A DNA stretch of 49,029 nt from Acidimicrobiia bacterium (GTDB lineage: Bacteria > Actinomycetota > Acidimicrobiia > IMCC26256 > PALSA-610): NCBI GenBank assembly GCA_036271555.1, contig DATBAK010000058.1:1-49029 (forward strand), in the 5' to 3' direction. This document shows, one piece after another, positions 15,755 through 18,130 of the stretch. Under the pieces are notes generated by a model that did not search any database, was not told the DNA's origin, and worked only from the letters and a program-made list of their open reading frames with translations. Numbering within the stretch: position 1 is the first letter of the stretch; each line of letters starts with the position of its first letter. Both the position numbers and the translations under genes were made by a program.

Positions 15755-16543
15755 GTGAACGCGGCCTGCGCCGCGGACGAAGCCGCGGCCGCGCACTGCT
15801 TCGTCGACGCGCTCGACACCGCGGTCACCGTCGAGGGCGCCGACGGCCATCACCTCCAGCGCGTCCGCCGGTTGCGCGTCGGTGAGCTCGTCACCGCGGC
15901 CGACGGCGACGGCCGGTGGCGGCGCTACGTGGTCGCGAGCGCGGAGCCGGGCCGCCTGCTGTTGCGCGCCGACTCCGAAGTCGCGTGCGAGCCCGAGCCT
16001 GCGCCGGGAGTGTCGCTCGCGGTCGCGCTCACGAAGGGCGCGAAGCTCGAGACCGTCGTCGCGCAGTTGACCGAGCTCGGCGTGCGCCGCATCGAGCCGG
16101 TGCGGGCCCGTCGGTCGGTCGTGCGTTGGGACGACGACCGGGCCGCGGCCGCGGTCGACCGGCTCCGCTCGGTCGCGAGGGAGGCGGCGATGCAGTGCCG
16201 GCGGGCACGGGTGCCCGACGTCGCGCCGGTGGCCGATCTCGCCGCCCTCACCGGCCGCCCCGGCCTCGTGATCGCCAGCCGCACGGGCGATCCGGCCGAA
16301 GCGCTGGCCGCGCCGCCGGCCGGGGAGGTCTGGACGGTCGTCGTCGGGCCGGAGGGTGGGTTCGATCCCGGCGAGGTCGAGGCGCTCGGCCCCGCGGCCG
16401 TCATCAGATTGTCACCGTACGTGCTGCGCGCCGCGACCGCGCCGGTCGTAGCGGCCGCTTTGCTCGTCGCGCGAGCGTCCCCTGGGCCTGATGTGGTCAG
16501 TGATGCTTCGATCACCCAAAGTGAGTCCCCCTCGGAAGCATGA
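15755..16543 (+). CDS. rsmE: 16S rRNA (uracil-1498-N3)-methyltransferase RsmE
   Basis: SPOUT-class methyltransferase that modifies U1498 in the 30S decoding region. The 262-residue protein has an N-terminal PUA-like domain (about 15-75, with GHHLQRVRRLRVGELVTAADG) and the knotted SPOUT domain with ALTKGAKLETVVAQLTELGV, VVGPEGGFDPGEVEALG and the C-terminal knot LSPYVLRAATAPVVAA. GTG 15755 is the only sensible start close to the conserved region. The gene follows dnaJ by 109 nt, a widespread arrangement. Its last codons contain a candidate BldD box. Confidence 0.94.
   Translation: MNAACAADEAAAAHCFVDALDTAVTVEGADGHHLQRVRRLRVGELVTAADGDGRWRRYVVASAEPGRLLLRADSEVACEPEPAPGVSLAVALTKGAKLETVVAQLTELGVRRIEPVRARRSVVRWDDDRAAAAVDRLRSVAREAAMQCRRARVPDVAPVADLAALTGRPGLVIASRTGDPAEALAAPPAGEVWTVVVGPEGGFDPGEVEALGPAAVIRLSPYVLRAATAPVVAAALLVARASPGPDVVSDASITQSESPSEA
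16512..16524. promoter_or_regulatory. Candidate BldD box 1 upstream of bldD
   Basis: TCAC-CCAAA-GTGA is a perfect inverted repeat matching the Streptomyces BldD consensus as I recall it (TNAC-N5-GTNA). It lies inside the 3' end of rsmE, 88 nt before the bldD start. Confidence 0.6.
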
Positions 16544-16568
16544 CTTTCACGTAGCGTGCTGGTATTCT
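16540..16568 (+). promoter_or_regulatory. bldD: Candidate bldD promoter with BldD box 2 in its spacer
   Basis: A -35-like ATGACT (16540-16545) and a -10 TATTCT (16563-16568) are separated by 17 nt. In the spacer, TCAC-GTAGC-GTGC (16547-16559) matches the TNAC-N5-GTNA pattern with one mismatch. The two boxes are 35 bp apart, on nearly the same helix face. This suggests negative self-regulation. Confidence 0.5.
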
Positions 16569-16611
16569 CAGCCGCGGGGCTGGTACGGGCGCAGGGGTGA
16601 GGGAGTTCGGG

Positions 16612-17109
16612 GTGTCGAGCAGCGGAGCACGTGTCGGGGAGCGTCTCAGGGCGATCCGCCGGCAAAAGGGCCTTTCCCTCCACGATGTGGAGGCACGGTC
16701 GAACCTCGAGTTCAAGGCGTCCGTTCTCGGCGCCTACGAGCGCGGCGAGCGGGCCATCTCGGTCCCGAGGCTGTTGCGGCTCTCGGAGATCTACGAGGTG
16801 CCCGGCGACCAGCTGCTGCCTCGGGACTCCGAGTCCGAGATCAACCTCGCCGATGCCGGCACCACGTCGGGCCTGTCGCTCGACACCGGCTACACGATCG
16901 ATCTCACTCGCCTCGGCGACGTCGACGATCCCGACGCGGCGATCCTGTCGCGCTACGCGCGCACGATCCAGCTGCAGCGTCAGGACTTCAACGGCAAGAT
17001 GCTGACGATTCGGCGCGACGACCTGCGCGTGTTGGCCGCGGTGCTCGACCGGGGCGTCGAAGAGCTCGGCTTGCGCTTCGACCAACTCGGTCTGCGCGCC
17101 ACCACCTGA
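16612..17109 (+). CDS. bldD: BldD-type global regulator with cyclic-di-GMP signature
   Basis: Small XRE-family regulator of 165 residues that matches Streptomyces BldD end to end. The N-terminal helix-turn-helix (about 8-70) reads VGERLRAIRRQKGLSLHDVE and VLGAYERGERAISV, close to the BldD YERGDRAVTV. The C-terminal ligand domain carries R123-Q-D125, eight residues, then R134-R-D-D137, fitting the RxD-x8-RxxD motif that binds a cyclic-di-GMP tetramer. GTG 16612 is preferred over 16597: GAGGGAG lies about six nt upstream, and the product then begins like BldD (SS, then LRAIR at equal distance). It stands alone between rsmE and phoH, with candidate BldD boxes upstream. Confidence 0.9.
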   Translation: MSSSGARVGERLRAIRRQKGLSLHDVEARSNLEFKASVLGAYERGERAISVPRLLRLSEIYEVPGDQLLPRDSESEINLADAGTTSGLSLDTGYTIDLTRLGDVDDPDAAILSRYARTIQLQRQDFNGKMLTIRRDDLRVLAAVLDRGVEELGLRFDQLGLRATT

Positions 17110-17161: not shown

Positions 17162-18130
17162 TTGGCAACTTCCGCGGCGTCCACGCAGGTCAAGATCCTC
17201 GTCCCGGGCAACCACTTGATGGTCGGCCTGCTCGGTCAACGCGACGAGCTGCTGCGCATGGTCGAAGACGCGTTCCCCGTGTCGATCCACGTGCGCGGCA
17301 ACGAGATCACCGTGACCGGCGAGGAAGCCGAGACCGAGCGCGTCGGCCGGCTGTTCGAGGAGCTCGTCGTCCTGCTCGAGCGCGGTCACGAGCTCGACCG
17401 CGACAACGTGTCGCGTTCGATCGAGATGTTGAAGGCCGACCAGCGTCCGAGCGAGGTGCTGACCGTCGAGGTCGTGAAGGGTCGCAAGACCGTGCGGCCG
17501 AAGACGAGCGGTCAGAAGCGCTACGTCGACGCCGTGCGCGAGAACACGGTCACGTTCGCGATCGGACCCGCGGGCACCGGCAAGAGCTACCTCGCGGTCG
17601 CGCTCGCGGTGCAGGCGCTCCAGGCGAAGCAGGTGAACCGCATCATCCTCACCCGTCCGGCGGTCGAGGCCGGCGAGCGACTCGGGTTCCTGCCCGGCGA
17701 CGTCCTCGCGAAGGTCGATCCGTATCTGCGGCCGCTGTACGACGCGCTCTACGACATGGTCGAGCCCGAGGCGATCGGCCGGCTCATGGAACGGGGCACG
17801 ATCGAGGTCGCGCCGCTCGCCTACATGCGCGGCCGCACGCTCAACGACTCGTTCATCATCCTCGACGAGGCGCAGAACACCACCGCCGAGCAGATGAAGA
17901 TGTTCCTGACGCGGCTGGGCTTCGGGTCCAAGGCCGTCGTCACCGGCGACATCACGCAGATCGATCTGCCCGACGGTCGCGGCCGTTCGGGGCTGCTGGC
18001 GGTGCGCTCGGTCCTCGACGACATCGACGGGCTCGTGTTCGTCGAGCTGGGCAGCAGCGACGTCGTGCGGCACCGCATCGTGCAGGACATCGTCGACGCG
18101 TACGAGCGCCACGAGACGAGCAAACCGTGA
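17162..18130 (+). CDS. phoH: PhoH-like ATPase
   Basis: Cytoplasmic P-loop ATPase of the PhoH/YbeZ family, usually encoded beside YbeY and linked to ribosome and RNA quality control. The 322-residue protein has an N-terminal RNA-binding-like region (about 1-80, SIHVRGNEITVTGEEAE), Walker A GPAGTGKS (near residue 138), ILTRPAVEAGERLGFLPGD, Walker B FIILDEAQN and the sensor TGDITQIDLP. The TTG start at 17162 is supported by the conserved VKILVPGNHLMVGLLG close behind. ybeY follows after 136 nt. Confidence 0.93.
   Translation: MATSAASTQVKILVPGNHLMVGLLGQRDELLRMVEDAFPVSIHVRGNEITVTGEEAETERVGRLFEELVVLLERGHELDRDNVSRSIEMLKADQRPSEVLTVEVVKGRKTVRPKTSGQKRYVDAVRENTVTFAIGPAGTGKSYLAVALAVQALQAKQVNRIILTRPAVEAGERLGFLPGDVLAKVDPYLRPLYDALYDMVEPEAIGRLMERGTIEVAPLAYMRGRTLNDSFIILDEAQNTTAEQMKMFLTRLGFGSKAVVTGDITQIDLPDGRGRSGLLAVRSVLDDIDGLVFVELGSSDVVRHRIVQDIVDAYERHETSKP

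Follow-up and report, generated by a model that had tools for sequence, protein, structure and literature searches.

A true BldD orthologue in Acidimicrobiia: predicted cyclic-di-GMP-dependent self-repression and a probable GGDEF-EAL gene target

BldD and related cyclic-di-GMP switches

BldD is the Streptomyces sporulation switch worked by cyclic-di-GMP. Work on it has so far, to our knowledge, been confined almost entirely to mycelial, sporulating actinomycetes, and the class Acidimicrobiia is one for which we know of no Streptomyces-type sporulation.

The closest described system, BldD of Streptomyces coelicolor and S. venezuelae, shares with the locus presented here its two-domain architecture, the RxD-x8-RxxD ligand signature and the 13-bp TNAC-N5-GTNA box (PMC4151990). 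Direct targets of the Streptomyces protein include the diguanylate cyclase or cyclic-di-GMP enzyme genes cdgA, cdgB, cdgC and cdgE (PMC8325347), and bldD itself is listed as a target in the portions of PMC4255298 drawn on here. In these same portions Chater and Chandra describe a convincing bldD orthologue in Acidimicrobium ferrooxidans, a member of the class considered here, and suggest a role in simpler actinomycetes; they give no binding sites, ligand or targets for it, and because the gene was already reported in Acidimicrobium, its occurrence in this class was already on record. A second parallel is the RsiG-WhiG switch of Rubrobacter, a cyclic-di-GMP switch of Streptomyces development that also occurs in unicellular actinobacteria and whose suggested targets include enzyme genes, although RsiG, unlike the present protein, is an anti-sigma factor and not a DNA-binding repressor (PMC8325347). 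A search of one literature library found no paper on BldD in Acidimicrobiia, and the titles and abstracts retrieved for BldD in non-sporulating or unicellular actinobacteria included no study of its function in them.

The bldD locus and its product

The window analysed here, a stretch of 49,029 nucleotides, belongs to the 4.68 Mb genome (104 contigs) of a soil actinobacterium whose nearest named relatives are Acidimicrobiia, with isolate IMCC26256 in the same order, bearing out the original prediction of an actinobacterial class different from that of Streptomyces. The bldD coding sequence (positions 16612–17109, forward strand) starts with GTG, encodes 165 residues and is preceded by a putative ribosome-binding site, AGGGAG (16600–16605), plausible for that start. 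As had been proposed, it lies between rsmE (15755–16543) and phoH (17162–18130), both on the same strand, a neighbourhood that sets it apart from Streptomyces bldD; the rsmE–bldD linkage extends across the class, and phoH directly follows bldD mainly within the order. A bldD gene was identified in 50 of the 58 genomes from the order and in 168 of 391 good genomes of a phylum sample. Five records titled as Bifidobacterium breve metagenome-assembled genomes, yet carrying Acidimicrobiia-type bldD loci of 59–69% identity, appear to bear misassigned titles.

The claim that the product resembles BldD over its full length is supported by Pfam and NCBIfam and by PDB matches to both solved halves. Pfam HTH_3 and HTH_31 match the N-terminal DNA-binding domain (approximately residues 8–70, positions 16633–16821), and BldD-like_C (PF21179) matches residues 95–159 (positions 16894–17088) with 67.4 bits against a cut-off of 27. 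Sequence searches of the PDB retrieved the S. coelicolor BldD DNA-binding domain (2ewt, E 1e-16) and C-terminal domain (5khd and 4oay, E about 1e-11). The NCBIfam BldD model NF050110 covers residues 6–160 with 140.6 bits (E 4e-41), below its 250-bit equivalog cut-off, which is a naming threshold, set high, and no functional trait. An AlphaFold2 model (mean pLDDT 75.9) superimposes on 2ewt with a TM-score of 0.89 by target length at 51% identity, and on complexes of the BldD C-terminal domain with cyclic-di-GMP with TM-scores of up to 0.88 at 42–44% identity (0.88 and 44% for 4oaz), these identities marking the distance from the Streptomyces protein. A BldD-type N-terminal helix-turn-helix domain and a BldD-like C-terminal domain are thus both present, and the genome holds a single BldD match. 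Judged by these comparisons, ORF 16612–17109 is a true BldD orthologue in Acidimicrobiia.

The predicted cyclic-di-GMP site

The ligand signature is present exactly as claimed, R123-Q-D125 (positions 16978–16986) followed after eight residues by R134-R-D-D137 (17011–17022), and R123, D125, R134 and D137 are invariant in 30 relatives and across the order, and kept in a wider sample. In Streptomyces further ligand contacts are made by Ile110, Asn118, Ser123, Arg130 and Lys84 (PMC4151990). Equivalents of Ile110, Asn118 and Arg130 are retained as I119, N127 and R139, and Ser123 is conservatively replaced by T132. The exception is Lys84, a phosphate contact said to be Lys or Arg in all homologues (PMC4151990), which in the alignment with S. 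coelicolor BldD corresponds to Gly93; this position is mostly Gly in the order and variable across Acidimicrobiia. Lys84 is a secondary contact, outside the RxD-x8-RxxD signature.

Absence of this contact could favor a reading in which BldD binds its boxes constitutively or under control of another signal, cyclic-di-GMP not controlling it in the lineage. We consider this improbable, since none of the four base-reading residues varies within the order, all are kept beyond it, and the genome is rich in the relevant enzyme domains, with 17 GGDEF and 14 EAL domains above cut-off. The search for diguanylate cyclases, a check named along with the original prediction, was thus positive.

Predicted BldD boxes upstream of bldD

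Two candidate self-binding sites had been proposed upstream of the gene, and both hold as predicted boxes, scoring 14–16 bits on the class motif described below. On the training background their scores are 14.2 and 13.5, where the next best position reaches 0.6; when the base composition of the genome itself is used, they are 16.0 and 14.2. Dinucleotide shuffling of the upstream region, repeated 2000 times, never produced two sites of at least 13.5 and produced one such site six times. The two boxes differ in their conservation. The one-mismatch site TCACGTAGCGTGC (16547–16559) lies, as predicted, between a putative -35 element, ATGACT (16540–16545), and a putative -10 element, TATTCT (16563–16568, with an extended TGG preceding), filling part of the 17-bp spacer that separates them, and it is the conserved site of the two. 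It belongs to a block, GACTTTCACGnnnCGTGCTGnTA, common to several genera of the family, whose distance to the start codon varies. The perfect site TCACCCAAAGTGA (16512–16524) exists as stated, but because rsmE extends to 16543 it falls within the last codons of that gene, and it has no counterpart at this position in relatives. Paired boxes upstream of bldD recur at nine loci from several families, so that the pair at 16512 and 16547 may represent a common arrangement.

More general support comes from a de novo motif search, to which the BldD box was not supplied, over the sequences upstream of bldD in the class, 80 in all after removal of near-duplicates. It recovered YCAC-KSWSM-GTGR (in full, nYCACKSWSMGTGRn) in approximately 85% of the regions, with a log-likelihood of 224 as against 32–33 for shuffled sets; as read from this consensus, the class motif is the Streptomyces BldD box. 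Of 54 upstream regions from other Acidimicrobiia, 11 contain a perfect TNAC-N5-GTNA match; the expectation is 1.3, and none of 200 shuffles gave more than four. Because related sequences are not fully independent, such motif figures exaggerate how many separate events they represent. Among held-out readable bldD upstream regions 14 of 21 score at least 12, several with two boxes, the 95th percentile of 480-nt upstream windows in the genome being 10.9. Several seemingly empty upstream regions turned out to carry strong boxes farther out; at three loci inspected to -420 there was no strong box near bldD.

A conserved block containing -35 and extended -10 elements might simply be a promoter, its likeness to a BldD box incidental and bldD not autoregulated. 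Indeed, in this family the box lies wholly inside the promoter spacer, as part of one long conserved block. Against this, the same palindrome appears in other families at many distances from the start codon, often paired, and was recovered without motif input, and promoter conservation is not expected to produce symmetry about a CWG centre. We regard this explanation as very improbable.

A GGDEF-EAL gene as a probable further target and a proposed mechanism

Beyond bldD, one further probable target is well supported. A gene encoding a GAF-GGDEF-EAL protein (contig C5, 111734–114301) is preceded by a 13.9-bit box, and its three closest orthologues, from two other genera and of 40–45% identity, carry boxes of 16.0, 15.5 and 15.5 bits, none of the scores in this set arising in more than 8 of 2000 shuffles. 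The box lies between two divergently oriented genes and may therefore act on the opposite one, which encodes a small secreted protein, in place of or along with the GGDEF-EAL gene. What the protein controls, left open in the original prediction, can be answered in part: bldD itself and, probably, one or more genes of the GGDEF-EAL type.

From the computed protein family, conserved ligand residues and conserved boxes we infer ligand binding, DNA binding and repression, and we assign a probability of roughly 0.8 to the reading that this true BldD represses itself in a cyclic-di-GMP-dependent manner, with at least one GGDEF-EAL gene probably repressed as well. As in Streptomyces BldD, two C-terminal domains would be bridged by four cyclic-di-GMP molecules, and the resulting dimer would bind TNAC-N5-GTNA boxes via its two helix-turn-helix domains. 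Bound at 16547–16559, it would occlude the -35/-10 spacer and keep RNA polymerase out; bldD would thus be repressed by its own product at high cyclic-di-GMP, the ligand acting as co-repressor in a negative autoregulation that the 16512 box may strengthen. Repression of at least one GGDEF-EAL gene would probably close a cyclic-di-GMP feedback loop. Class-wide autoregulation and such a loop on a cyclic-di-GMP enzyme are the likely additions to what is known, and the class-wide self-site together with the conserved site at an enzyme gene makes a BldD role outside sporulation directly testable.

These sites also suggest a connection of BldD to cyclic-di-GMP enzymes that predates Streptomyces development. 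A speculative extension is that early actinobacterial BldD was a regulator of cyclic-di-GMP homeostasis and surface lifestyle repressing itself and GGDEF-EAL genes, that its sporulation role arose later in the Streptomyces line, and that Acidimicrobiia keep the older role.

Genome-wide search for other boxes

Whether the motif is enriched upstream of genes was another check named beforehand, and its outcome was mixed. In 1.25 Mb of the genome the class motif gave 11 promoter matches of at least 12 bits as against 2.2 in column-permuted controls, none of 60 reaching 11, whereas with bldD masked and spacer-changed controls there were 10 matches against a mean of 4.4, an approximately twofold excess, and one other spacer also gave 10. 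The sampled part of a relative, genome G044, showed no excess of promoter boxes. Taken together, the two kinds of control and the relative lacking an excess indicate an enrichment that is real but modest in this genome, with promoter boundaries that are approximate because genes were called with a simple purpose-written script.

Behind the best sites lie two GGDEF-EAL genes, a Tad-like protein, large secreted proteins and polysaccharide genes. Boxes upstream of such genes, and their excess over permuted columns, would fit a master regulator with wide control over surface structures (the Tad-like protein, secreted repeat proteins and polysaccharide genes) and over cyclic-di-GMP enzymes. This broader role seems doubtful, given the smaller excess over spacer controls and its absence from G044. 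Pairwise footprinting with G044 further argues against it, a box occurring in both genomes at only 1 of 86 shared promoters, where it is probably the own operator of a MerR-family gene, as does the HU gene, rejected as a target since its site is not conserved in readable relatives. Most box-bearing genes other than bldD are leads only; for one of these candidates, UDP-glucose dehydrogenase, orthologues were found.

Simpler pattern searches were of little help. A strict Streptomyces-like core, TNACNCWGNGTNA, gave three genome matches, the same as its reversed control, and is therefore useless here. TCACN5GTGA occurs 50 times in the genome against 7 for its reversed control, a raw count that misleads because 16 of the 19 occurrences in the 1.25 Mb sample fall in coding sequence.

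The second GGDEF-EAL gene, C10:133717–135765, was rejected as a conserved target, since the two boxes that precede it in this genome are absent from its homologues, which are distant (30–33%). Its upstream region holds a 30-codon ORF (MLKWKPLANAGVIAALTAVYTVLAAPVKWR), and a -10-like element lies between the two boxes, which are separated by 31 bp. Another GGDEF protein (C77:38629–39522) has a called N-terminus, SGLGRGLSSILP, that resembles the start of ParB and could be a start-call artefact. The genome also encodes a FliA/WhiG-type sigma factor (C36:88482–89159) that scores above the NCBIfam cut-off.
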